The translations under genes were made by a program, and so were the position numbers. From positions 1,054,001-1,118,000 of the forward strand of contig NZ_CP152389.1 in assembly GCF_038806765.1 (NCBI RefSeq): a DNA stretch of 64,000 nucleotides. Direction: 5' to 3'. Numbering within the stretch: the first letter of the stretch is position 1; each line of letters opens with the position of its first letter. Under the pieces are notes generated by a model. That model saw nothing but the letters and a program-made list of their open reading frames with translations, was not told the origin of the DNA and searched no databases. Origin of the DNA: Mucilaginibacter sp. CSA2-8R. GTDB taxonomy: Bacteria > Bacteroidota > Bacteroidia > Sphingobacteriales > Sphingobacteriaceae. This document shows positions 977-14,519 of this stretch, piece after piece.

Positions 977-1022
977 AAGCCGGAGTATGATGAATGACCG
1001 TTCATTTATCATACTCCGGCTT
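977..1022 (+). terminator. Strong hairpin terminator
   Basis: A 15-bp perfect stem (AAGCCGGAGTATGAT paired with ATCATACTCCGGCTT), extended inward by a few more pairs, lies 55 bp after the small membrane gene and is followed by a T-rich stretch. It should insulate the kinase cluster that begins at 1282. Confidence 0.75.
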
Positions 1023-1281: not shown

Positions 1282-2697
1282 ATGAGTAAAGTTTTTACAA
1301 TAACAGAAGGCTTAGAAAACCTGGGTGCTCTGCGCACAGGCGGGCAAGGCTCGGTATATAAGGGTAAAAGGCAGGGTACGCTGTATTCGGCCATTAAACT
1401 GCTGCCTACACCCATCATGAACGAAAGTGAGGACGACCGCGGCTACCGTAATTATCAGAGTGAGGTTGCTAAACTGCAAAAGGTTAACGAGCAGCCCAAC
1501 CCTCATGTAGTTAAAATTCGCAGTTTTGGGCTTACCGATAGCGGCTCGTTTCCGTTCATCGAGATGGAGTACATTGAAGGGCCTGACCTCAGCGAGTTGC
1601 TGCAGCCACCGCATGACCCCGTTTTTAGTTTAAAAGAACTGATAAAGGTAGCCGACCAGTTAGCCGATGCTTTAGCGCATTGTCATAAAGTAGGCGTTAA
1701 ACACGGCGACATCAAGAGCAATAACGTTAAGTATAATATAAATACGGGTAACTATGTGCTGTTAGATTTCGGTCTGGCCATTTTAACTGATGAGCAGCGG
1801 CGCAGCTCGGTAAGGCATGCAGGGGCTATTGAGTTTATGGCACCCGAGCAGCACGAGGGCGGGCAGATGCTGCCTCAAACAGATGTGTACAGTTATGGCG
1901 TAATTTTGTATGAGCTATTAGCTGGTGAGGTTCCCTTTACCCTAAGTGGTAACAGCGAAACGGGCAGAAACGCGGTAATGTTATCGCATTTAGAGCAAGC
2001 CATACCCGACCCCATCGCAAAACGGGAACAAAAGCTACCGGCTGAGTGGAGTGCCGAAAAGCGCCGGCAGGAAATGCAGGTACCACACTGGCTGCTGCAA
2101 CTGATTGCCAAATGTTTGGAGAAAAATCCGGATAACAGGTATCGTGATGGGCTTGAACTACAACAAGCTATCACCGAAGGCAGCTTGATGGCCAACGCAC
2201 CCTATCTTACTACACCGCAGCCACAAAGCATGCCTGATGTAGGCACTGCCCTGCAAGACGAGAACCAGCGTTTGCAAAACCAGATTTTAGCCTTACAACA
2301 GCAGTTGGATGAAGCACCTCAGGCGGAGCAGGAAGATGATGAATCGAATGTGACAATGTCTAAGCCACTGTTTTTTTTGTTTGTGTTTTTATTGGTGGTG
2401 TTTATGGGCTTTTCGGTTTACTCGGCGTTTTTTAAACGTGAGCCTATGCCTGCGGCTACTGAGCAGGGAGGTACTACCGATACTACCCAAATAAAAACAG
2501 ATACCGGCGCAGTTAGTGAGCCAAAAACTTACAATCCGGATAGTATAAGTGATGCTGTAATGCGAAAGCGCAGGAGAGACTCAATTATACAAAGTAGTAT
2601 TGACAGTGTAAGACGTGCTACGCAGAAAGCCCTGGAAGAAAAACAAAAAGACAGCGCTGATGTGCAAACCGACACCACACAAAGCCAGGAAGAGTAA
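1282..2697 (+). CDS. Membrane-anchored Ser/Thr protein kinase (first of two paralogues)
   Basis: This 471-residue Hanks-type kinase has a glycine loop (GGQGSVYKG, residues 20-28), ATP lysine K39, catalytic loop HGDIKSNN (141-148, D143 the base), DFG (162-164) and APEQ. The HGD in place of HRD makes it a non-RD kinase, which often does not depend on activation-loop phosphorylation. A short coiled stretch (about 325-345) precedes one transmembrane helix (about 361-383) and an external tail of about 85 residues rich in K, R, D, S and T, with no PASTA repeats. It opens a cluster with FHA, PP2C and SEDS-PBP genes, so its likely role is to phosphorylate cell-envelope factors that the FHA proteins read. 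The kinase call is firm; the substrates are inferred. Confidence 0.92.
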   Translation: MSKVFTITEGLENLGALRTGGQGSVYKGKRQGTLYSAIKLLPTPIMNESEDDRGYRNYQSEVAKLQKVNEQPNPHVVKIRSFGLTDSGSFPFIEMEYIEGPDLSELLQPPHDPVFSLKELIKVADQLADALAHCHKVGVKHGDIKSNNVKYNINTGNYVLLDFGLAILTDEQRRSSVRHAGAIEFMAPEQHEGGQMLPQTDVYSYGVILYELLAGEVPFTLSGNSETGRNAVMLSHLEQAIPDPIAKREQKLPAEWSAEKRRQEMQVPHWLLQLIAKCLEKNPDNRYRDGLELQQAITEGSLMANAPYLTTPQPQSMPDVGTALQDENQRLQNQILALQQQLDEAPQAEQEDDESNVTMSKPLFFLFVFLLVVFMGFSVYSAFFKREPMPAATEQGGTTDTTQIKTDTGAVSEPKTYNPDSISDAVMRKRRRDSIIQSSIDSVRRATQKALEEKQKDSADVQTDTTQSQEE

Positions 2698-2816
2698 TTT
2701 TAACAAAACTGATTTAACAGAATTTATTGTAGGCAATTATTAAAGCGCCGGCAAACATCTGCGCAGATTTGCCTGTTTTGCTACCTCATAATTGCCAAGC
2801 ACTGTAACTTACTTTT

Positions 2817-3782
2817 ATGGAAACCAAACCTAATTTTTGGCAACGTTTAGGCATACAAGATTGGTTTTTAACCAACGAGAGCCAGCCTGTTGCTAACGTA
2901 ACTCCGGCACTTACTCCCGAAGTGATTTATAAATATATTGTCGAGAAATTTCAGGAGTCTATCAACGAATTGTCGTTTGCCGGGCGGGTGGTATTTTATC
3001 ACGAATTTATTATCAGCTTTAATGCTGATGACTACCGCGAGTTTAACGACAACAAACAAGGCATTATTGGCTTGATTGTGCAGGAATGCGTTAAAAAGTT
3101 TTATGAGATATTAAAGGGCTACCGCGAGGCCGGAAAAACCGTAGAGCCTTCGGGTTCAAAATGGGTGTTCCGGGTAGTTACCCATCCCGACTATGCCCGC
3201 GGCGATAAAGGCTTTATCGGTAAATTACTGCCGGATAGCAGTGCGCCGCAAAAAAAGGAAGAAAATCTGCGTGTTACCTTCATCCCGAGGCAAACCGGTA
3301 TTGCGCAAACTTTTGACGTGAACCAGGAAGTGCTGAGCGGCTTTACTTACTACAGTGATGGTTATTTCGAAATACCATACGAGGAGCAACTGGAATATGA
3401 CGCTCAGGAGGTAAATGATAGTAAGCCCGGTCAGGCCGTTATTGCCCGCCTGGAAACCATCATCCCCGATAAACAGTTTGCCGGCAAAAAGGTAGAGTAC
3501 CTGATGAAGAGCGAGGAAATCATTATAACCGGTAAAGAAGAAACCCGCGAGGGAGACGAGATATTTAAAATCCCGTCGGATTGGGTGAGCGTGCCGCACC
3601 TGCATATCCGCTACAATAAGGCCGACGGCAAGTTTTACCTGGCCTCTTTTGGCGAGATGACCACCCTGAATGAAAACCTCGTACAGCATAGCGATATTAA
3701 TGCGCCGGTTTGGGTGGAACTGCCGGTTAACTCGCGCATGCTGCTCAACGGCATTATTGGTTTAAACCTTTTTAAAGGATAA
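2817..3782 (+). CDS. FHA-like protein with N-terminal FhaA-like domain
   Basis: A 321-residue soluble protein. Residues about 35-130 form an alpha/beta domain whose layout recalls the DUF3662-type N-terminus of mycobacterial FhaA (resemblance by eye, not proven). Residues about 225-320 look like an FHA phosphothreonine-binding fold: Ser-x-x-His is kept (S258...H261) and an Asn sits at the expected loop (N285), but the usual Gly-Arg is Gly-Lys (G239-K240). Phosphopeptide binding may therefore be altered. The gene follows the kinase by 119 bp and precedes a tiny membrane ORF by 4 bp. A role as adaptor or kinase substrate is inferred from the neighbours. Confidence 0.6.
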   Translation: METKPNFWQRLGIQDWFLTNESQPVANVTPALTPEVIYKYIVEKFQESINELSFAGRVVFYHEFIISFNADDYREFNDNKQGIIGLIVQECVKKFYEILKGYREAGKTVEPSGSKWVFRVVTHPDYARGDKGFIGKLLPDSSAPQKKEENLRVTFIPRQTGIAQTFDVNQEVLSGFTYYSDGYFEIPYEEQLEYDAQEVNDSKPGQAVIARLETIIPDKQFAGKKVEYLMKSEEIIITGKEETREGDEIFKIPSDWVSVPHLHIRYNKADGKFYLASFGEMTTLNENLVQHSDINAPVWVELPVNSRMLLNGIIGLNLFKG

Positions 3783-3786
3783 CGGT

Positions 3787-3885
3787 ATGTCGCAAATATT
3801 ATCGGTAGGCTTGTTAGTATTGATTGTGGCCTTATTGGGCACACATTTTTTTGACATTAAAAACTCGGGAAAGCGCAATGGCTGA
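3787..3885 (+). CDS. 32-residue single-pass membrane peptide, coupled to the phosphatase
   Basis: An ATG at 3787 opens a 32-codon ORF (MSQILSVGLLVLIVALLGTH...) that is almost entirely one transmembrane helix with a short basic tail. It starts 4 bp after the FHA-like gene and its stop overlaps the phosphatase start by 8 bp, a layout that implies translational coupling. Codon use resembles its neighbours. It is too short for family recognition. It may be a small regulatory subunit of the envelope complex, or only a leader for coupling. Confidence 0.5.
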   Translation: MSQILSVGLLVLIVALLGTHFFDIKNSGKRNG

Positions 3886-5329
3886 AAACTATTTTGGATT
3901 AACCGATACCGGCAGGGTGCGGGATAATAACGAAGATACCTTTATTGCCCAACAAACCCCCGGCGGTTTAATTGTAGCCTGCGTAATTGATGGCGTTGGC
4001 GGCTATCACGGCGGCGAAGTGGCTGCCGAAATTGCCCGGCAGGAAGTGGTTGCCCAACTCAATCGGACTCAAGGTGATATTATTACGGGTATGACCGCGG
4101 CGTTTAAACAAGCCAGCAAAAACATCTACCAGCGCCGTAAAGAAGAAAAAGAACTGGAAAGCATGGCCTGTGTTGCTACCCTGGCCGTGGTAGACATCAC
4201 CTCTAATCAATTTTATTATGCCCACGTAGGCGATACGCGCTTATACTTGCTGCGCGATGGCTCATTGGTAAAGATTACCAAGGACCATTCTTTTGTAGGT
4301 TTTCTGGAAGATTCGGGCCGGTTGACAGAAAGTGCCGCCATGAATCATCCTAAACGGAACGAAATAAATAAAGCCTTAGGCTTTGACACCGCCATTGCCA
4401 CCGACGAAAGCTATATCGAGACGGGTCAGTCGCCTTTTTTGCCCGGCGATGCCTTGCTGTTATGCAGTGACGGCCTGACCGATTTGGTAGACAAGGAAGT
4501 AATGACGCGAATTGTAACGCAACCGGTTACGCTCGAGCAAAAAGCCGCTCAGCTTATAGATGCAGCTAACCGCGCCGGAGGTAAAGACAATATTACGGTA
4601 GTACTCGTACAAAACGATAAAACATCACAAAAAACCGTAGCCCGGATGCCTGCAAGCCCGGTTAAAAAAAAGGAGACGGTAAATAAGCCTGATACCATCA
4701 TTAGCAGAACAAACGAAACTGTTACTACACCGCAGCAAGCCCCTGCCGTCGCAGATAAAAAAAGCAGTAGCTGGGGACTTGTTTTTGGTTTGCTTAGCTT
4801 AATCTTTTTGGGTACTACGGTTTGGTTTTATATGCAGTTGAATGCTAAATCAAATCAGCAAGCAACACCGTCTGATACTGCCGCAGCCAAACAACCCGGT
4901 GCCATGCAAGTCAAGCTGCAAAATGCCATTAATGCTGTTAAAGGAGATACGCTTACCTTGTCCGACACGACTTACAAAGCGCCCATCCTCATCAGCGATA
5001 GCCTGGTGATTGATAAAGATACCTTGTTCATTAAAACCAAAGGTAATATCCGTTTGCAGCGCGATTCTGTTTATGCAGGTCCAGGCCTGATATTGGGTGG
5101 GGCATGTAAATATTTAGTGATTGAAGGTTTGCAAATGCAGGATTTCAACACAGGTATAGCTTTGCAAAACACGTCCTTAGAATTAAGGGGAGTTCAGTTT
5201 ATTAATTGTAAACAGCCGGTGAATGCATCTTATCTTTTTAATAATGACAAGCGTATTACTGCCAAAATTGGGCGCGTTAGCTACCGGGCCGATTCTATAA
5301 TTACTGTAAAGCCTAATGGAAACAAATAA
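3878..5329 (+). CDS. PP2C-type Ser/Thr phosphatase with transmembrane segment and external domain
   Basis: The 483-residue protein starts MAENYFGLTDTGRVR at 3878. A longer in-frame start at 3824 would only add an unlikely hydrophobic stretch. Residues 1-245 carry the PP2C metal-site motifs: DNNED, VIDGVGG, VGDTRLYL, CSDGLTDLV and GGKDNITVV. A Lys/Thr-rich linker leads to one transmembrane helix (about 299-321). The external part (about 325-483) has short repeating hydrophobic strands and an FINC turn, suggesting a small parallel beta-helix. That is unlike mycobacterial PstP, whose external part is short. It should reverse the action of the two kinases. It overlaps the next gene by 14 bp. Confidence 0.88.
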   Translation: MAENYFGLTDTGRVRDNNEDTFIAQQTPGGLIVACVIDGVGGYHGGEVAAEIARQEVVAQLNRTQGDIITGMTAAFKQASKNIYQRRKEEKELESMACVATLAVVDITSNQFYYAHVGDTRLYLLRDGSLVKITKDHSFVGFLEDSGRLTESAAMNHPKRNEINKALGFDTAIATDESYIETGQSPFLPGDALLLCSDGLTDLVDKEVMTRIVTQPVTLEQKAAQLIDAANRAGGKDNITVVLVQNDKTSQKTVARMPASPVKKKETVNKPDTIISRTNETVTTPQQAPAVADKKSSSWGLVFGLLSLIFLGTTVWFYMQLNAKSNQQATPSDTAAAKQPGAMQVKLQNAINAVKGDTLTLSDTTYKAPILISDSLVIDKDTLFIKTKGNIRLQRDSVYAGPGLILGGACKYLVIEGLQMQDFNTGIALQNTSLELRGVQFINCKQPVNASYLFNNDKRITAKIGRVSYRADSIITVKPNGNK

Positions 5330-8300
5330 AATAGAGGCAACGGGCAGGGGTAAGGAGCGTATTTTTTTACTGCTCATTACTGTTTTATTAGGCTTGCTTT
5401 TTTACCGCCTGTATACGGTATTGCAATTGCGCTTTGCTGATGTTGACCAACGCCTTAGCGATGGCACGATGGTCAACATCAATGCAAAAAATCCGGCTGC
5501 AAATTTCAAAGATTTATTAACTAAGGGATATTATTTTGATGACAAACGCGACATCAATTTAATCGAATCGGTGGTGGCGCAGGGCATCAGTACCGGCGAA
5601 AAAATTGATAATATAGGCGAGCTCAACAAGCGTAAATATTATTTGAATGCCGATGATGCTTTTGCCAACGGCGGCACTTCGTTTAAAAAGCGCGTTGCAG
5701 CGTCCCGCTCTTTATTGGGTTATACCGGGGCCGATTCTGTTCGTTTTAAACAGGAACGACGCAATCCGCCTGAGTTGCCTTCGGAGGTAGATTTAGCCAT
5801 GGGCCAATACAGCATCGAGGGTAAGATTGTCAACAAAGAGCAGCCGGTAGGTGGCGTGCTGGTGCGCTTGGAAATGATTTTGCCGCAAGACAGTATTGTG
5901 AACGATGAGGTAGGCGAAGACATTAAAACCACCACCGAAACCAGTCGTACATTTACTAAACAATATATCCCCGACAGTGCAGGCAAGCGTCATTTGCAAG
6001 CTTTAACAGCTTACGCACGCACCAATGCCGACGGCGAAATTGAGTTTAAAAACCTGCCAACAGAAAAGGCATTCCGGTTGCTGCCTTTGCAGCCCGGTTA
6101 CCAGTTTGGTACTTCGCAGGGTGTGCAAAGCCTGGACGGTAATGAAAAGTTCATCTTTCATCAGCAACCCCATACCATTAGGCTGCTTTCAACCCGCGAT
6201 TTTAATATTCTTAAAAAAGAAAAATCGCTGATTGTACGTACCCCACAAGAGTTTAACCGCTGGTTTTTCATCATCGCCGGATGTTTTGTGATGGCTTTCC
6301 TGCTCATTCACCTGGTACTGTCAGCAAAATTCAGTAATGCCGACCAGTTGATTTTGCCGGTAATTATGACGCTGACTGGTCTTTCATTCCTTACACTGCT
6401 AAGTTTGCAGGACCCTTTGCGTGACCGTTTTTTGGCTAAAGATACTTTGGTCTACCTGGGCATCGGTACTGCCGTAACCATAGCTATGCTAACGCTAAAC
6501 TTGCGCCGCTTTACTACCGACTCGGGTTTATACCGCTTATTTGTATTTAAAGGTACGCCAAGCGCAGGCAACGGCTGGCCGTGGGCGGTAATGGCCGCAG
6601 GTTTACTGGCTTTAACCATTTTGTTTGGTACAGGCCCCGAGGGTAGCGGTGTTAAAGTGAACTTATTTGGCTTTCAGCCGAGTGAGATTGTTAAATACCT
6701 GGTGATATTTTTTCTGGCTGGTTTTTTTGCTGCTAACGAGAAACTTATAAGCGAGTATACCACCTGGACCAAGCGCTGGTCTTTCTTCTACTTCGCGCTT
6801 ATAGCCATATTGGTTACGTTGATGCTGTTTTTGCTCTTGGGCGATTTAGGCCCGGCCATGGTGGTTTGCTTTACGTTTATTACGCTGTTCTCGTTCTCGC
6901 GCGGCGATTTTGGCTTTATGGCTTTGGCTGTCATTATTTATGTATTAGCCTCGTGGCTGTTAAAAAACGTATGGCTCTCAGCACTGGCAACAGCAGCCGT
7001 AATGGCCTTGTTAATGCTTTTCCAAAGGCGCCAGTTGAGCGAGTCGGCCGTGATGGTGCTGATTATTATGGCGGCTTTCCTCACCATCGACCAAATACCT
7101 TACCTGGATAAAGTTTTCCCCGGCCCTGTTCAGCGTTTAATTGATCGTAAAGCCATCTGGCAGGATGCCTGGAACAACGAAGTTTACGGCGGCGACCAGG
7201 TGGCTAACGGTTTGTGGGCTATGTCGAGCGGCGGTGTTTCCGGCCAGGGTATAGGCGAAGGCTTCGCCAAAACCATCCCTGAGGCTCATACCGACATGAT
7301 ATTGCCCTCTATGGGCGAGGAGTTCGGCTGGACGGGTATTGTCTGCATATTTATCTTGTTTTTGATTTATTTGCACAGGGCTATTTTAATAGGCCGCCGA
7401 ACGGGAACGCCCTTCCTGTTTTATTTATGTGCCGGCATAGGCGTATCTACCTTTGTGCAATTTTTGCTGATTGCCGGTGGCTCAACCGGGGCCTTACCTT
7501 TATCCGGTGTATCACTGCCTTTCCAAAGCTATGGAGGCTCGTCTTTAGTGGCTAATATGCTGGCATCGGGCTTTTTACTGTCTGCATCAATGGTGCGGGG
7601 TACGCCGGTGCAAATGACCTATATCTCCAAACAGCAAGACCGTAACCTAGTGCCTGCATTATTAGCGGCTTGTATGGGTATCATACTGCTTACCGTAAAT
7701 GTGTCGCGCTACTTATTTGATAATAAAAAGTGGGTAGTACAGCCTGCCTTAGTGGCCGACAAAAGCGGTGCCCGTATGTTTAGCTATAACCCGCGCATCG
7801 CCATATTAATGAACCGGTTGCAAGCCGGTAATTTGTACGACCGTAACGGCGCTTTGCTGGCTACCAGCAAACCCGAAACCATCCGCAAACAACGGAGCAA
7901 ACTAATAAGTGCTGGGGCCGGTAATTACAATTTAGACTCGGCCATGCATAAGCGGCTGGACCGCTATTACCCTTTTGAGGAGCAAACCTTTTTTTGGACG
8001 GGCGATGCAAATACCGGCGTTTTTAACGGCAGCAGCAACGGCTACTTTGCCGAATATGAACATGCTGCCGAACTGCGTGGTTTTGAACTGCCAACTACCC
8101 ATTATAACGTAACGGCCAACCGCTACCGCGAAGACCGCTTTTTAGCGCGGGGCGTTAAAGAGATGGCGGTGGTGAAAAAAGATTACAAAGCATTGGCCAC
8201 GTTGTTACTGGCGGGGATAAATAGTAAGCAAGTAGATGCATTTCGTAACCGAAACCGCAACGTGCAGTTAACTATTGATGCCAGCTTGCAAACCAGTATT

Positions 8301-9386
8301 CAGAAATCACTGGCTACCGACACATCATTGGCCGATAACCGGGTATCGGTGGTGGTAATGGAAGCGAATACCGGCGATGTACTGACCTCGGCCGTTTACC
8401 CCTTGCCGCCTGTGCGCGATTGGGAAAAACTTACCATGACCACAGCCGAGCAAAACCAGCTGGCTGGCTGGATGACTACCTCCGATTTGGGTTTTACTAC
8501 GGCAACACAACCTGGCTCAACGGCCAAGGTGCTAACCGGCTTAGCGGCGTTTAATAAATTGGGTATGGCAGCTGCCGATGTAAAATACCCGGTTTATGCC
8601 CGCGAACGTATCCGTACCAAGGGTATCGAACCTGACGAAACCGGGATGATTAGTATGGAGCGGGCTATCGTTAAATCTAATAACGTATATTTCATCAAAC
8701 TGGCTAACCAGCAACATCTGGAAAACCAGATGACGGATTTGTACCTAAAAACCGGTATGTTTTTACACGGCGTTGGTGGATACTACTACGGCCGGGGCAC
8801 CGTTGATTCTGTTCAGCAGGATAAATGGCGTAAGCTCTGGACAAAAACCGAGTTTAACACCAAGCCCCGTTACGACCCTAACAACATACACCGTACACGG
8901 GCTAAAGGTATATCGGGTATGGCCTGGGGCCAGGGCGAATTAATTGCCACTCCGGCAGCCGTAGCCAGGCTGGTATCGGGCGTTGCCAACAATGGCGTAT
9001 TGGTTAACAACCGTTACGTGTTAAAGGTTAGTGCAGATGCCCAGCCTGTTAAAGCCGGTATTAAGCTGGCCAATAAGCCGCAGTATGCCGATTTAATGCG
9101 AAGGTATATGATTGAGCAAAGTGCCCCCAAAGCTTATACGCTTGGTATTGCAGTAGCCGGTAAAACCGGAACGCCCGAACGTATCTGGAAAAAGCAACAG
9201 ATTAACGATGGCTGGTACACCTTTTTTGCACCCAAGGCTAATGGCAGCGGCAATATGGTGGTTTGTATTCGCATAGAGGCTACCAAAGGGTCATCAGATG
9301 CAGTGAAGCTGGCGGGGCGGCATGTGGTACCTTTTTTGCTTCAAAAAGGGTATATTAAAAGTATTGTTCCACAAGCAACGGAGTAA
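5316..9386 (+). CDS. SEDS (RodA/FtsW) glycosyltransferase fused to class B penicillin-binding protein
   Basis: One 1356-residue chain. Residues 15-35 form a transmembrane helix; 36-315 are external and include a beta-sandwich like carboxypeptidase-regulatory/CNA-B folds (about 160-290). Residues 316-770 are a multi-pass SEDS domain with the hallmark PEAHTDMIL (catalytic-type Asp D660), GEEFGW and LPFQSYGGSS. An extra helix (779-798) then carries the chain outside, followed by a PBP pedestal (NLYDRNGALLA) and a transpeptidase with all three motifs: S1068-T-A-K1071, S1121-N-N1123 and K1283-T-G1285. It therefore holds both glycan polymerisation and cross-linking activities, normally split between RodA/FtsW and PBP2/FtsI. 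The topology is self-consistent. The kinase/phosphatase/FHA neighbours suggest phospho-regulation. Confidence 0.9.
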   Translation: METNKIEATGRGKERIFLLLITVLLGLLFYRLYTVLQLRFADVDQRLSDGTMVNINAKNPAANFKDLLTKGYYFDDKRDINLIESVVAQGISTGEKIDNIGELNKRKYYLNADDAFANGGTSFKKRVAASRSLLGYTGADSVRFKQERRNPPELPSEVDLAMGQYSIEGKIVNKEQPVGGVLVRLEMILPQDSIVNDEVGEDIKTTTETSRTFTKQYIPDSAGKRHLQALTAYARTNADGEIEFKNLPTEKAFRLLPLQPGYQFGTSQGVQSLDGNEKFIFHQQPHTIRLLSTRDFNILKKEKSLIVRTPQEFNRWFFIIAGCFVMAFLLIHLVLSAKFSNADQLILPVIMTLTGLSFLTLLSLQDPLRDRFLAKDTLVYLGIGTAVTIAMLTLNLRRFTTDSGLYRLFVFKGTPSAGNGWPWAVMAAGLLALTILFGTGPEGSGVKVNLFGFQPSEIVKYLVIFFLAGFFAANEKLISEYTTWTKRWSFFYFALIAILVTLMLFLLLGDLGPAMVVCFTFITLFSFSRGDFGFMALAVIIYVLASWLLKNVWLSALATAAVMALLMLFQRRQLSESAVMVLIIMAAFLTIDQIPYLDKVFPGPVQRLIDRKAIWQDAWNNEVYGGDQVANGLWAMSSGGVSGQGIGEGFAKTIPEAHTDMILPSMGEEFGWTGIVCIFILFLIYLHRAILIGRRTGTPFLFYLCAGIGVSTFVQFLLIAGGSTGALPLSGVSLPFQSYGGSSLVANMLASGFLLSASMVRGTPVQMTYISKQQDRNLVPALLAACMGIILLTVNVSRYLFDNKKWVVQPALVADKSGARMFSYNPRIAILMNRLQAGNLYDRNGALLATSKPETIRKQRSKLISAGAGNYNLDSAMHKRLDRYYPFEEQTFFWTGDANTGVFNGSSNGYFAEYEHAAELRGFELPTTHYNVTANRYREDRFLARGVKEMAVVKKDYKALATLLLAGINSKQVDAFRNRNRNVQLTIDASLQTSIQKSLATDTSLADNRVSVVVMEANTGDVLTSAVYPLPPVRDWEKLTMTTAEQNQLAGWMTTSDLGFTTATQPGSTAKVLTGLAAFNKLGMAAADVKYPVYARERIRTKGIEPDETGMISMERAIVKSNNVYFIKLANQQHLENQMTDLYLKTGMFLHGVGGYYYGRGTVDSVQQDKWRKLWTKTEFNTKPRYDPNNIHRTRAKGISGMAWGQGELIATPAAVARLVSGVANNGVLVNNRYVLKVSADAQPVKAGIKLANKPQYADLMRRYMIEQSAPKAYTLGIAVAGKTGTPERIWKKQQINDGWYTFFAPKANGSGNMVVCIRIEATKGSSDAVKLAGRHVVPFLLQKGYIKSIVPQATE

Positions 9387-9449
9387 CCCAAGGAACGCGT
9401 AACGGGCTGCTTAAACCTTTTGCATTTATAACAGTATAAGTAAGAACCT

Positions 9450-10241
9450 ATGTTTAATTTTTTTAAAAGCGGTGCAGACGAGCGACCCACTGATGTTAAA
9501 GGTGTGCGTTATGCCTTGCTGCAATTTATAAAACAAGAACTGCAAAAAGCAGAAGGTGGTGAAGGTGCCAACATTAAAGGGTTGTGCTTATACATCAACG
9601 CTAATGCCGCCGAGCAGCATATTTATGAAACTGCGGTTTATGCCGAGCAACCAGAAGAGTTAAGAGAAGAGATACAAAAGATAGCCGACGACTATGCATT
9701 GGCTTTGCCTGATAATTGGACGCTGGATTTGATTTATGAAGATGATGTACCCGACGAAGCCGTAAAGGCAACTAACGTAGATGCAGCTATTTTTATCAAA
9801 ACCAGCCGTCACTTTATCAAGCAAACCACTACTGCCTATATAACGGTATTAAGCGGAGAAGCAGAAAAACCGGAGTATGTGATTACCTCCGAGAGTGGCA
9901 AGATAAATATTGGCCGGGATAAAAAGGCGCAGGCTGATGACGGTTTTTTTCGAACTAACCATATTGCGTTTCCGTCTGATAGCCAAAATCAGAGCAATCG
10001 TTATGTGAGCCGTCAGCATGCCCATATAGAGTGGAATAATGACAATTCTCATTTCATGCTTCACGCGGATGAAGGTGGTGTGCCGCCACGCAACAAAGTG
10101 AAGATTAAAGTGGCAGCTACCGAAGAGCTGGTAAAACTGCACTCTACCGAAATCGGTCACCCGTTAAATGAGGGCGACCAGATTATCATAGGCGAATCGG
10201 CCGTATTACAGTTTAGCAATAAACCGTCGGGAAATGAGTAA
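9450..10241 (+). CDS. FHA domain protein
   Basis: A 263-residue soluble protein. Residues about 1-125 form an N-terminal alpha/beta domain reminiscent of, but shorter than, that of the other FHA-like protein in the cluster. Residues about 138-258 are a complete FHA domain with the phosphothreonine-reading residues in place: G155-R156, S187-R-Q-H190 and N215. It lies 63 bp after the SEDS-PBP fusion, and its stop overlaps the second kinase start by 8 bp (GAATGAGTAA), so the two are translationally coupled. It probably docks on phosphothreonines made by the cluster kinases and recruits partners to the synthase, as FhaB-type proteins do in mycobacteria. The FHA call is firm; the role is inferred. 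Confidence 0.85.
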   Translation: MFNFFKSGADERPTDVKGVRYALLQFIKQELQKAEGGEGANIKGLCLYINANAAEQHIYETAVYAEQPEELREEIQKIADDYALALPDNWTLDLIYEDDVPDEAVKATNVDAAIFIKTSRHFIKQTTTAYITVLSGEAEKPEYVITSESGKINIGRDKKAQADDGFFRTNHIAFPSDSQNQSNRYVSRQHAHIEWNNDNSHFMLHADEGGVPPRNKVKIKVAATEELVKLHSTEIGHPLNEGDQIIIGESAVLQFSNKPSGNE

Positions 10242-11673
10242 GGTATTTACAATAGCGGATGGATTAGAAAACCTGGGTGCTTTACGCACAGGTGGCCAGG
10301 GCTCGGTATACAAGGGCAAACGGCAGGGTACATTGTACTCGGCCATTAAACTGCTACCTACGCCGATCATCAGCGAAAGCGAAGACGACCGTGGCTATCG
10401 CAATTTCCAGAACGAGGTAACTAAGCTGCAAAAAGTTAACGAGCAGCCTAATCCGCATGTAGTCAAAATCCGCAGCTTCGGGCTTACTGACAGCGGCTCA
10501 TTCCCTTTTATTGAGATGGAGTACATTGAGGGGCCGGATCTTTGTGAACTGTTGCAACCCCCTCACGACCCAATCTTCAGTTTAAAAGAATTGATTAAGG
10601 TAGCCAACCAGTTGGCCGATGCTCTGGCGCACTGCTACCGGGTAGGAGTAAAGCACGGCGATATTAAAAGCAATAACGTAAAGTACAACGTTCACACCGG
10701 TAATTATGTATTGCTGGACTTTGGTCTAGCCATTTTAACCGACGAGCAGCGGCGCAGTTCGGTAAGGCATGCTGGGGCTATCGAGTTTATGGCGCCAGAG
10801 CAGCACGAAGGAGAGATGCTGCCACAAACAGATGTATACAGTTATGGTGTTGTGTTGTACGAACTACTTACAGGCCAGGTGCCTTTTGTGTTGAATGGTA
10901 ATGGCGAAACCGCCCGGAATGCGGTGATGTTGGCACACCTCGAGCAGGCAGTGCCCGATCCAATCACCCGGCGTATATTGCGGCTGCCTGCAGGTTGGGA
11001 TGAGGATAAGCGTAAACAGGAGTTGGCAGTTCCGCAATGGCTCTTACAGGTAATTACCAGGTGCCTTGAAAAAGATCCAGCCCGCAGGTATGCAAACGGG
11101 ATTGAACTTCAGCAAGCCCTTACCGAAGGCAGCCTGATGGCAGCTGAGTCTCATCATTTGCCTGCATCGGCACGCATAGATGCTACTGCCCTGCAGGAAG
11201 AAAATGAACGGTTGCAAGCAGAACTGCTGCAATACCGGCAAAAAGAAGAACAACATCAAAATCAACTATCTTCTCTGCAATCGGTAGCCCTGGAAGCAGG
11301 CGGCCGTTACAATCCCGAAAAGGGAATGTATGAATCTAACAAAGATATTGTACACCTGCCTAAGCGCTGGTTTGTAGGTCTGGCTGGCGTCGCTGCCTTG
11401 TTTATCGCGCTGTTTTCTTTCTCTTTTTTCTCCAAACCTAAAACGCCTGCGGGTACCGAAGCTGCAGCTGTAAAAGTGGACGAGAACTATAAATCGCCGT
11501 TTGTCTTTTTAAGCAAACGTTACCAGGATAGTGTGAAGGCAGTGTATACCAAACCTGCCGTTAAAATGGCTGCTTTTAAACCTGCCGAACAGCAGTTTGT
11601 ACCGCCGGGTTGGGCCAAACATCATAAAAAGTTTAAAGGCAAGCATCGTAAAAGGTTTTTAGGTCTTTTTTAA
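10234..11673 (+). CDS. Membrane-anchored Ser/Thr protein kinase (second paralogue)
   Basis: A 479-residue paralogue of the first kinase. The first roughly 300 residues are nearly identical, with the same glycine loop, K39, H141-G-D143 and DFG. After a Gln/Glu-rich coiled coil (about 308-345), one transmembrane helix (about 380-400) leads to an external tail that ends in a very basic segment rich in K, R and H (about 458-479). The two kinases therefore share a catalytic unit but carry unlike external ends, one mixed-charge and one strongly cationic, which may touch anionic envelope polymers. The gene closes the cluster and is translationally coupled to the FHA gene. The resemblance suggests duplication and perhaps gene conversion. 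Confidence 0.92.
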   Translation: MSKVFTIADGLENLGALRTGGQGSVYKGKRQGTLYSAIKLLPTPIISESEDDRGYRNFQNEVTKLQKVNEQPNPHVVKIRSFGLTDSGSFPFIEMEYIEGPDLCELLQPPHDPIFSLKELIKVANQLADALAHCYRVGVKHGDIKSNNVKYNVHTGNYVLLDFGLAILTDEQRRSSVRHAGAIEFMAPEQHEGEMLPQTDVYSYGVVLYELLTGQVPFVLNGNGETARNAVMLAHLEQAVPDPITRRILRLPAGWDEDKRKQELAVPQWLLQVITRCLEKDPARRYANGIELQQALTEGSLMAAESHHLPASARIDATALQEENERLQAELLQYRQKEEQHQNQLSSLQSVALEAGGRYNPEKGMYESNKDIVHLPKRWFVGLAGVAALFIALFSFSFFSKPKTPAGTEAAAVKVDENYKSPFVFLSKRYQDSVKAVYTKPAVKMAAFKPAEQQFVPPGWAKHHKKFKGKHRKRFLGLF

Positions 11674-11822: not shown

Positions 11823-14519
11823 GTGTCCGAAACTTTTACCTTTTTAAAAGGCGGCGGCCTAATGGGCGAATTAATGCGCGCCAATAACTGGTCCGAAACA
11901 TCTTTCGGCTCGCCTCAGACCTGGCCCGATAGCTTGCAATTGGCCGTGAGTATTGCTTTAAATTCGGGTTTCCCCATTGCTGTTTATTGGGGTGCTGACT
12001 TTTCTTTATTATATAACGATGCCTGGAGCACCATACCCGCACAAAAACATCCCTGGGCGTTAGGTAAACCTGGTGCGGTAGTATGGCCCGAAATATGGGA
12101 AGGGTTGAAAGATGAGTTTGAAAGTGTACTGCACGAAGGTGCATCTTACCGAAGGCCTGATGCCCTGCTGTTGATGAACCGCAACGGTTACACCGAAGAG
12201 TGTTATTTTGATTATACCCTTTCGCCGGTAATGTCTAAAGATGGTACCGTGGGTGGTGTGTTTAACGCCGTTATCGAGACTTCATACAAGTATATTCATG
12301 AGCGCCGCAATCAGTTACTGCTTCAGCTGATACACAGTGCTAATAAATCACAAACGGTAATTCAAGGCATTAGCAACGTAATGCAGATATTGGGCAATTC
12401 GCGCCTGGATATTGCTTTTGCTGCCTTATACTTAAGTGACGAACACCAAGTTACCCAGGTAAGCCTGAAAGCCCATAGCAATATTTTACTAGAGCACCTC
12501 ACTGCTTTCCAGCAATTGTGTAGTGAGGTTGCTATCGGAGGCAAGTCAATCTTTGTTGAACAATTGAACGATTATTTGCCAGCACCGGTTGATAGCTTAT
12601 GGCCTGAGCCTGTACAAGAAGCTTTAATTGTGCCCGTTAGTAATGATAATGCCCGTTTAAAAGGCTGCCTGGTATTAGGGGCTTCGCCCCGTAAACGCAT
12701 TGATGCAGATTACCGGCAGTTTTTAGAGACTACCGGAATGCATGTAGGGACTTTATTAAATAATGCTCACGCGCACGAAATGGGCGAGTCGTACCAGCGC
12801 GAACAGGCTCTAAACGAGGAACTGGGCGCAGCTAATGAGGAGCTTTCGGCAGCTAACGAAGAATTGGCCGCAATTAACGGAGAACTGCAGCAGACTCAGC
12901 AGCGCTTAAGCAGTCTGAATGCTCACCTGGAAGAACGTATTGAGAGCCGGACATTTGAACTGGCGGCAACTAACGAAGAGCTGTCATCGACTAATGAAGA
13001 GTTGCTAACCATTAACGAAGAACTTTACGCAACTAAGCACGACCTCGAAAAAACGATAAAAGAACTGGCTGCCAGCCAGGACCAGTTCACGTTTTTACTA
13101 AATGCCATACCGCAACAGGTGTGGACCGCAAAACCTGATGGTAAGCTCAACTACGTGAACCAGACGGTAAGTAAAGATTTTGGCTACATGCCAAGCGAGG
13201 TAGTTAACCACGGTTGGCAAAAACTTATTCATCCTGATGATTTGCCGGGCTGTTTGAGGGCATGGCACAAAGCGTTGGCCTCGGGCAATGAGTATGTGAC
13301 TGAATTTAGGTTGCGTATGCACAACGGCGAATACCGGTGGTACTTGAGCCGGGCCGTGCCATTGATTGAAGAAGGGGCCATTAAAATGTGGCTGGGTACT
13401 AATACGGATATTGATTTGCAGAAGAGCAATGAGCATAAAAAAGATGAGTTTTTATCTATTGCAAGCCATGAGCTAAAAACGCCGCTTACCAGTATCAAGG
13501 CGTTTAACCAGTTAATGAGCAGGGCAAAAGACAGCGAAAAGCTTCACGGCTTTATCAAAAAATCTGCTGAGCATATATCCCGTTTAGAAAAACTGATTAA
13601 CGATTTGTTAGATGTAACTCGCATTAACGCCGGCAAAATGGACTACAATATGGCGCCGTTTAACATGGCCGAGTTGATCATGAGCAGCGTTGAGGCAGTA
13701 CAGCTTACAGCGCCGGATTATGAAATTATCATCCGCGAAAATGCCAACGTTACTTATACCGGCGATTATTTTAGGCTGGAGCAGGTGGTGCATAATTTTT
13801 TAACCAATGCCGTTAAGTATTCTCCCGATAATAAAACCGTAATCGTAGACGCTGTGGTTGAGGATGACAGCGTAATAGTTTCGGTAGAGGATTTTGGTAT
13901 TGGTATAGCGCAAGACCATCTTGATAAACTATTCGACCGCTATTACCGGGTAGATAATACTGCCATGCGTTTTGAGGGCTTGGGCTTGGGGTTATTTATC
14001 TCGTCCGAAATTTTAAAGCGGCACCAGGGCACTTTCTGGATTGAAAGCAAACAAGGCAATGGCTCTACGTTTTATTTTAGGCTGCCGTTGGTACAAAAGG
14101 ATGAGCGCCGGGAGTTGATGATGGCCGATAATTTTTATCAGGATAACAACATTACGTTGCAATACAGTGCAGTGCATAACTACGTAGCGGCCGATTGGAC
14201 AGGTTTCCAAACGGTAGATACGGTGAAAAACGGCTGTATGCAGATGCTGAGCTTAGTTAAAGCAAATGGTGCAACCCAAATACTTAATGACAATACCCAT
14301 GTACAAGGCACTTGGTCTGAAGCCTCTGATTGGGTAGGGCAGGAGTTTTTTCCGATGCTCGAAGATGCTGGTGTTAAACATGTAGCGTGGATTTTTTCGC
14401 CTAGCATATTCAGCCAGCTATCTGCTCAAAAAAGTGTTGATGTTAAGCAGGGTAATGTAGTAGCCCAGTTTTTTACCACTCGTGCCGAGGCCGAACAATG
14501 GCTTAATAACAAAGACTAA
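11823..14519 (+). CDS. Cytoplasmic PAS sensor histidine kinase with C-terminal STAS-like domain
   Basis: An 898-residue protein with a GTG start and no transmembrane segments. The order is an N-terminal PAS-like domain (about 20-160), a GAF-like region (about 165-318), a long coiled coil of repeated NEEL heptads (about 322-420), a PAS/PAC domain (about 422-535), HisKA with SHELKTPLTS (H549), HATPase (about 650-760) and a C-terminal domain of about 125 residues. The last has the layout of a SpoIIAA/STAS-like fold ending in TTRAEAEQWL. No receiver domain or cognate regulator lies nearby, so it is an orphan. The fusion of a STAS-like module to a kinase end suggests protein-protein output or tethering. 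The kinase call is firm; the C-terminal fold is by resemblance. Confidence 0.87.
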   Translation: MSETFTFLKGGGLMGELMRANNWSETSFGSPQTWPDSLQLAVSIALNSGFPIAVYWGADFSLLYNDAWSTIPAQKHPWALGKPGAVVWPEIWEGLKDEFESVLHEGASYRRPDALLLMNRNGYTEECYFDYTLSPVMSKDGTVGGVFNAVIETSYKYIHERRNQLLLQLIHSANKSQTVIQGISNVMQILGNSRLDIAFAALYLSDEHQVTQVSLKAHSNILLEHLTAFQQLCSEVAIGGKSIFVEQLNDYLPAPVDSLWPEPVQEALIVPVSNDNARLKGCLVLGASPRKRIDADYRQFLETTGMHVGTLLNNAHAHEMGESYQREQALNEELGAANEELSAANEELAAINGELQQTQQRLSSLNAHLEERIESRTFELAATNEELSSTNEELLTINEELYATKHDLEKTIKELAASQDQFTFLLNAIPQQVWTAKPDGKLNYVNQTVSKDFGYMPSEVVNHGWQKLIHPDDLPGCLRAWHKALASGNEYVTEFRLRMHNGEYRWYLSRAVPLIEEGAIKMWLGTNTDIDLQKSNEHKKDEFLSIASHELKTPLTSIKAFNQLMSRAKDSEKLHGFIKKSAEHISRLEKLINDLLDVTRINAGKMDYNMAPFNMAELIMSSVEAVQLTAPDYEIIIRENANVTYTGDYFRLEQVVHNFLTNAVKYSPDNKTVIVDAVVEDDSVIVSVEDFGIGIAQDHLDKLFDRYYRVDNTAMRFEGLGLGLFISSEILKRHQGTFWIESKQGNGSTFYFRLPLVQKDERRELMMADNFYQDNNITLQYSAVHNYVAADWTGFQTVDTVKNGCMQMLSLVKANGATQILNDNTHVQGTWSEASDWVGQEFFPMLEDAGVKHVAWIFSPSIFSQLSAQKSVDVKQGNVVAQFFTTRAEAEQWLNNKD

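Follow-up and report, generated by a model that had tools for sequence, protein, structure and literature searches.

Gene content of the cluster

We analyzed a 64,000-nucleotide stretch of DNA from Mucilaginibacter sp. CSA2-8R (contig NZ_CP152389.1, positions 1,054,001 to 1,118,000; hereafter the window), whose genome of 5.34 Mb forms a single contig. Positions 1282 to 11673 of the window carry seven genes on one strand, encoding a Ser/Thr kinase (K1), an FHA protein (FHA1), a 32-amino-acid membrane peptide, a PP2C phosphatase, a fused SEDS-PBP, a further FHA protein (FHA2) and a second kinase (K2; Table 1). An initial annotation of this DNA had counted eight same-strand open reading frames (ORFs); the common strand stands, but the number is seven, a 78-amino-acid ORF at 686–922 lying outside this range. 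Its gene overlaps are borne out by the letters of the ORFs (8 bp between the peptide and PP2C, 14 bp between PP2C and SEDS-PBP, and 8 bp between FHA2 and K2), and so is its assignment of the host to Bacteroidota, as two uncultured Mucilaginibacter have proteins that share 98 and 95% identity with FHA1, and M. galii (Sphingobacteriaceae) has one that shares 81%.

Table 1 Features of the cluster and its upstream boundary (TM, transmembrane segment)
Feature	Position	Strand	Basis
K1, predicted single-pass Hanks-type Ser/Thr kinase	1282–2697	+	Pfam Pkinase, hydropathy TM, invariant catalytic residues
FHA1, predicted FhaA-type protein with divergent FHA domain	2817–3782	+	hhalign, FhaA_N intermediates, model fold comparison
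32-amino-acid single-pass membrane peptide with basic tail	3787–3885	+	Presence in relatives, pN/pS
Predicted PP2C phosphatase	3878–5329	+	NCBIfam Stp1_PP2C, invariant Asp; start is the ATG overlapping the peptide stop
SEDS-PBP fusion, 1356 amino acids	5316–9386	+	Pfam, TM map, invariant catalytic residues
FHA2, alpha/beta N-domain plus FHA domain	9450–10241	+	Alignment of 42, model, fold comparison
K2, second predicted single-pass kinase, sister of K1	10234–11673	+	Pfam Pkinase, TM, kinase tree, invariant residues
Strong inverted repeat with 20-pair stem, 5′ of K1; candidate terminator bounding the cluster	978–1021		Consensus scan

The central gene encodes in one ORF both a Pfam FTSW_RODA_SPOVE domain (3.4e-46) and a Transpeptidase domain (7.2e-22), laid out as an N-terminal transmembrane (TM) segment, a periplasmic domain of about 280 amino acids, a SEDS polymerase and a class B transpeptidase. 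Asp660 in an HTDM motif, SxxK at 1068–1071, SxN at 1121–1123 and KTG at 1283–1285 are the same in all 14 aligned fusions; we take them to be the SEDS catalytic Asp and the class B transpeptidase motifs. PMC6207328 reports that RodA D262A loses activity. Elsewhere in the genome, FtsI, MurE, MraY, FtsW, MurC and FtsA are encoded in one cluster (dcw), and MreB, MreC, PBP2 and RodA in another; with the fusion included, three SEDS and six transpeptidase ORFs are present. Since separate FtsW/FtsI and RodA/PBP2 pairs exist, the fusion is predicted to be the third SEDS-PBP pair of the genome, besides those of the divisome and the elongasome. Its SEDS part is 26–28% identical to the FtsW and RodA of the same genome, which are 26–27% identical to each other (pairwise BLAST only). 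It shares with RodA-PBP2 and FtsW-FtsI the same two predicted activities and the catalytic residues, but differs from them in being a single polypeptide and in its linkage to kinase and FHA genes rather than to mre or dcw genes. According to PMC10449877, natural SEDS-PBP fusions are known, for which it cites the Rhodococcus RHA1 genome; the fusion described here likewise has one ORF for both activities, and it comes with the N-terminal TM segment, the periplasmic domain and flanking FHA genes. The outer domain had a carboxypeptidase-regulatory-like match above the cut-off in locus L138 (1.7e-11), matches below it in L177 and L175, and none in the window. Match rows flagged one internal stop in the fusions of genomes G363, G382, G132, G153 and G247, yet these ORFs are open (1322, 1350, 1221, 1221 and 1221 amino acids, respectively).

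The phosphatase (Pfam PP2C_2, 2.3e-18) has its catalytic domain at residues 6–244 and a TM segment at 297–319, followed by an extracytoplasmic tail. Asp20, Asp38, Asp198 and Asp237, which presumably have a metal-site role, are invariant in all 20 aligned sequences, and the outer tail has just two invariant residues. The NCBIfam Stp1_PP2C model matched at 2.5e-63, yet its 213.7 bits fall below the cut-off of 230; by these matches the protein is classified as a predicted single-pass Stp1/PstP-type phosphatase. At one locus, L087, PP2C appears as two pieces.

The two kinases matched Pfam Pkinase with E-values of 2.5e-37 and 3.4e-34. K1 consists of a kinase domain (about 17–287), a TM segment at 355–385 by hydropathy and a short, low-complexity outer tail. 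The GGQGSV loop, K39, HGD (141–143), DFG (162–164) and APE (187–189) are invariant in 34 of 34 kinases from the window and 19 related loci. Pfam detected no PASTA domain in K1 or K2, nor in six further kinases (two each in L137 and L175, and one each in L135 and L187), and there was none among the best 25 of 61 matches of the L176 kinase; the NCBIfam PASTA-kinase model gave a window kinase 152.9 bits against a cut-off of 450. A natural kinase–FHA fusion occurs at L175:13654-15042, where a cluster kinase carries its own C-terminal FHA domain (3.4e-10).

K1 and K2 are 83% identical over the kinase part and are sisters in the kinase tree; at the DNA level they form 0.9-kb direct repeats (1282–2192 and 10234–11141) with 76% identity over 911 bp. 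The kinase pairs of L027 and L030 are likewise sisters, though both kinase positions are common to relatives, so that either gene conversion or repeated duplication could explain the sisterhood. At a threshold of 1e-20, a kinase of this family was absent from eight of the nine cluster-less relatives tested, the ninth (G021) having one of 38% identity. We considered excision of the cluster by K1–K2 recombination; two cluster-less congeners have no leftover family kinase at the same threshold, and nothing there supports such an event. A third kinase of the family, 63% identical to K1, lies alone and far from the cluster (position 2932130 of the same genome; L187:8131-9723), with a Beta_protein (PF14350) gene close by.

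Neither FHA1 nor FHA2 had a match that reached the cut-off when searched directly against Pfam, NCBIfam and PDB sequences: FHA1 had no Pfam match, and FHA2 matched Pfam FHA only at 0.0074 (17.1 bits against a cut-off of 20.7). The initial annotation had called FHA2 canonical, which holds for the residues of the phosphothreonine site, Gly155, Arg156, Ser187, Arg188 and His190 being kept in 42 of 42 aligned sequences, but not for the Pfam score. FHA2 has no TM helix, and its AlphaFold model has an FHA fold at 126–260 (pLDDT 85.7), the best structural match giving Z 14.3 at a root-mean-square deviation (rmsd) of 2.1 over 101 aligned residues. The FHA1 model, with a whole-model pLDDT of 70.9, has an FHA fold at 207–321 (best Z 14.6, rmsd 1.8, 101 aligned); against the FHA domain of FhaA (3oun) it gave Z 11.9, rmsd 1.8 and 25% identity over 89 aligned residues. 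The structure-match lists of both proteins were filled by the FHA domain, and the FhaA N-domain fold was not among the matches. In FHA1 the phosphothreonine site has partly decayed: its Arg is Lys in the window and varies in relatives, and Ser258, present in the window, is Asn or Asp in most relatives; distant relatives keep both Arg and Ser.

Conservation of the cluster and its micropeptide

We surveyed 121 genomes of the family and 395 genomes of the phylum. FHA2 was found in 20 of the 121, the host genome included. In all 19 other family loci FHA1, PP2C, SEDS-PBP and FHA2 are collinear, with at least one kinase of the family adjoining in each and kinases on both sides in 10. A scan with FHA1, using one genome per species, reached close relatives only and yielded 187 loci, the best 80 of which were kept; the complete gene order is seen in 77 of these, and the remaining three run into contig ends. 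According to their titles, the loci come from Mucilaginibacter, Pedobacter, Hufsiella, Segetibacter and a few metagenome-assembled genomes with less precise names. The genes, which the initial annotation took to form a module on the understanding that scattering in related genomes would speak against it, are therefore found together. The gene order, the spacing and the 32-amino-acid ORF are conserved in many species, and the cluster is thus more than a chance assembly.

With a threshold of 1e-100, the fusion was detected in 15 of the 395 phylum genomes, and it is flanked by FHA1 and FHA2 in 15 of 15; the cluster includes PP2C in 12 of them and a kinase in 10. Variant orders occur, namely FHA1-PP2C-kinase-kinase-fusion-FHA2 in L136 and L137, and FHA1-fusion-FHA2, without PP2C, in L148, L150 and L151. 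The class of G149 has the fusion in 5 of 146 genomes. Fusions from another family of the class and from another class are 31–42% identical to that of the window, and deeply diverged versions of FHA1 in the phylum are 21–28% identical. The FHA1-fusion-FHA2 core thus has a wide though patchy distribution in the phylum and is probably old. A weak FHA2 match in G500, within a 32-amino-acid frame and without cluster genes, was rejected as spurious.

All 19 related loci have the 32-amino-acid ORF, with the 80% consensus MSQxLSxxLLxxxxxLLxxHFxDIKxS, and so do 81 of 81 loci of a second set that shares species with the first (L045–L124 and L135; 76 by tblastn and five read by eye). Among 73 distinct sequences its pN/pS was 0.30 (2628 pairs), and 0.34 when 488 closer pairs were taken, with silent sites near saturation, which indicates that its variation favours silent changes. 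The end of the peptide ORF and the beginning of PP2C share bases in 69 of 74 loci, and in 58 the overlap is exactly 8 bp. All eight of the distant clusters examined have, next after FHA1, an ORF of 22–31 amino acids that begins with ATG and encodes a single TM segment, although the eight are not independent (three are from one genus and two from one family); when the gaps were shuffled, an ORF of this kind arose in 0–16 of 1000 cases if ATG was required and in 0–78 of 1000 if any of three start codons was allowed. Thus, all the clusters examined that have FHA1, from two classes of the phylum, encode a single-pass micropeptide of 22–33 amino acids in the next slot.

Relationship to known kinase-FHA loci

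The initial annotation likened the cluster to the actinobacterial locus, whose exact order is fhaA-fhaB-pstP-rodA-pbpA-pknA-pknB, with fhaB, encoding a TM-FHA protein, in the slot that corresponds to the peptide. The likeness extends to gene content, as an FhaA-type FHA protein, a membrane PP2C, a SEDS protein, a class B PBP and membrane Ser/Thr kinases share one locus, and to the order FHA1, PP2C, SEDS, PBP. It is also borne out by the kinship of FHA1. The N-domain of FHA1 (about 33–136, limits from the model) is FhaA_N-like, and its family (A1) aligned with a distant family, A5, over columns 29–311 by hhalign (probability 99.1, E 1.3e-18). FhaA_N was matched in 4 of the 395 phylum genomes at 0.001, above the Pfam cut-off in three of one genus of another class, and the three passing A5 members adjoin the fusion in the same place as FHA1 (L148, 4.9e-6; L150; L151); matches in L138 and L176 (0.0011 and 0.0033) fell below the cut-off. 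Through these intermediates FHA1 is classified, on profile comparisons, as FhaA-type, and the likeness to the actinobacterial locus thereby includes a core part that is homologous.

The cluster is nevertheless not a copy of that locus. A single SEDS-PBP ORF with an extra periplasmic domain takes the place of separate rodA and pbpA; the kinases have no detected PASTA domain, whereas PknB is a PASTA kinase, and in the window they stand on both sides; no TM-FHA FhaB ORF was found in the cluster, where a membrane peptide of 22–33 amino acids fills the corresponding slot and FHA2, without a TM helix, is a protein of its own; and the host belongs to a Gram-negative phylum and keeps a separate elongasome and divisome. 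The same lack of a detected PASTA domain sets the pair apart from the Stk1, PrkC and PknB kinases that go with Stp1 or PstP, which it resembles in combining a membrane kinase with a PP2C. Type VI secretion also uses Fha/PpkA/PppA control, but the window FHA proteins are not TagH-type, as neither had an NCBIfam match up to E 1, and a distant FHA2 (L138) scored 15.1 bits against TagH, whose cut-off is 120.

Could the actinobacterial locus have been transferred recently into Bacteroidota? The shared gene classes, the similar order of fhaA, pstP, rodA, pbpA and kinase, and the finding that FhaA_N matched only Corynebacterium glutamicum among 14 control genomes would fit such an event; these controls and the one-genome-per-species scan with FHA1 made up our search of other phyla, and actinobacterial and firmicute clusters were otherwise compared through the literature. 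On the other hand, the FHA1 and fusion versions of the phylum are deeply diverged from those of the window, and the cluster kinases have no detected PASTA domain. The best PDB matches of the kinase were Stk1/StkP-type chains, ahead of PknB, and those of PP2C were a cyanobacterial enzyme and PstP about alike (2cm1, named PstP, 7.5e-34). Kinase and PP2C thus have no special affinity to actinobacterial chains, resembling those of several phyla about equally, so that this comparison, of PDB chains and not a cross-phylum tree, does not indicate a recent transfer. We regard it as quite improbable.

Control of peptidoglycan synthesis by kinase, FHA and PP2C proteins is known in Actinobacteria and partly in Firmicutes; PMC6554272 describes a seven-gene pstP cluster that Actinobacteria conserve and names some Firmicutes with pknB-fhaA, and its main text nowhere uses the word 'Bacteroidetes'. 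In the open-licence literature searched, we found no description of such a cluster in Bacteroidota, or of its peptide.

A candidate phospho-regulated synthase

We consider a phospho-regulated wall synthase the likeliest reading of the cluster. Judged from sequence, there is a reasonable probability that these genes specify an accessory peptidoglycan synthase, the third in the genome, that is switched by Ser/Thr phosphorylation. The sequences and models themselves give the gene content, synteny, conservation, intact catalytic residues, FHA folds and FhaA-type kinship of FHA1, as well as the separate divisome and elongasome genes; the activity of the fusion, its regulation, the phosphorylation targets, the assembly of the parts and the working condition are what we infer here. 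The SEDS part of the fusion would polymerize lipid II and the transpeptidase part would cross-link the product, while the extra periplasmic domain may sense, or position the fusion in the envelope. The membrane kinases would phosphorylate Thr residues of their partners in the cluster, for example in the linkers of the kinases or of PP2C, or those of other wall proteins; FHA2 would read phosphothreonine, FHA1 might act as a standing scaffold, and PP2C would erase the marks. The peptide may bind in the membrane beside SEDS-PBP or the kinases and tune the complex. We speculate that it is a split-off membrane anchor of an FhaB-like protein. A bolder proposal, which we offer only tentatively, is that Bacteroidota have in this cluster an old and self-contained 'third' wall machine. 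The micropeptide would be its obligatory small subunit, possibly an FhaB-like anchor, and would link kinase signalling to the fused SEDS-PBP in the membrane.

Several observations weigh against a phospho-switched synthase. Read by eye, the short cytosolic N-terminus of the fusion has no conserved Thr in the 14 aligned fusions, and in this lineage the site Arg of FHA1 is replaced and its Ser unconserved. Five of the 15 fusion genomes have no cluster kinase and three no PP2C, so the synthase is not accompanied everywhere by phosphorylation genes. These could lie elsewhere; the FHA1-fusion-FHA2 loci without a cluster kinase imply that the kinases act from elsewhere or that the role of the FHA proteins is partly phosphate-independent. 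A second fusion copy in G247 (L177:5165-9088) has no FHA neighbours by tblastn, at odds with strict co-occurrence. Finally, the patchy occurrence in the family means that the cluster is not needed by every species.

An alternative is that the kinases, PP2C and FHA proteins form a general signalling hub with its main targets elsewhere, SEDS-PBP being merely co-transcribed. The genome has four Pkinase genes over the cut-off, two of them in the cluster, and no further FHA gene by Pfam FHA at 1e-3, a search that missed FHA2 as well; moreover, PMC6554272 ascribes to Mycobacterium PstP broad roles beyond the wall. However, both FHA genes flank the fusion even in the five genomes without a cluster kinase, which makes FHA plus synthase the tightest unit, and in 49 of 78 loci the PP2C gene runs into that of SEDS-PBP, the overlap being 14 bp in 34 of them. 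We therefore judge the hub unlikely, although it deserves some weight.

A role in anti-phage defence or another conflict was also considered, since K1 and K2 match the PADLOC models PD-T4-6 and mad6 (1e-43 to 1e-46) and the cluster is patchy. HEPN_Swt1 domains are joined to distant FHA proteins in L138:9435-10805 and L152:9572-10873, and one lies beside such a protein in L149:1854-3554, just under the cut-off. Yet the PADLOC matches, which come without cut-offs, cover the kinase domain that Hanks kinases share, and NCBIfam MAD6 scored 107 against a cut-off of 460. Among the cluster proteins scanned, FHA1, FHA2 and SEDS-PBP had no PADLOC match at 0.01, and PP2C matched another model weakly (2e-7); PD-T4-6 is, however, a system of one kinase, whereas MADS has further MAD proteins. 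The strict collinearity and the intact SEDS and PBP residues fit a wall function, and a defence system seems very improbable.

If the phospho-regulated synthase is real, the cluster, probably non-essential in view of its patchy occurrence, would offer a compact model for the way in which kinases communicate with SEDS-PBP synthases, and it suggests that a very different bacterial group may likewise control wall growth by protein phosphorylation. More speculatively, a third SEDS-PBP in some Bacteroidota could be a factor in envelope stress and the beta-lactam response.

The cluster has a TetR gene and an RND efflux operon on its upstream side and a PAS/GAF histidine kinase gene (11823–14519) downstream. 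We rejected the TetR and histidine kinase genes as members of the system, as they adjoin the cluster only in two very close relatives among 85 loci (L045–L124 and L135–L139). In scans of the stretch, a Bacteroidota-style promoter pattern was no more frequent than expected by chance, and the count of sigma-70 promoters equalled that in shuffled sequence. The terminator consensus scan gave 18 terminator-like sites in the whole stretch against 15.4 expected, among them the inverted repeat in Table 1. Hsp70-like ORFs, read by eye, lie downstream in the L138 locus. The 78-amino-acid ORF, which lies just upstream of the inverted repeat in the window, has one hydrophobic stretch and is perhaps a small membrane protein gene.

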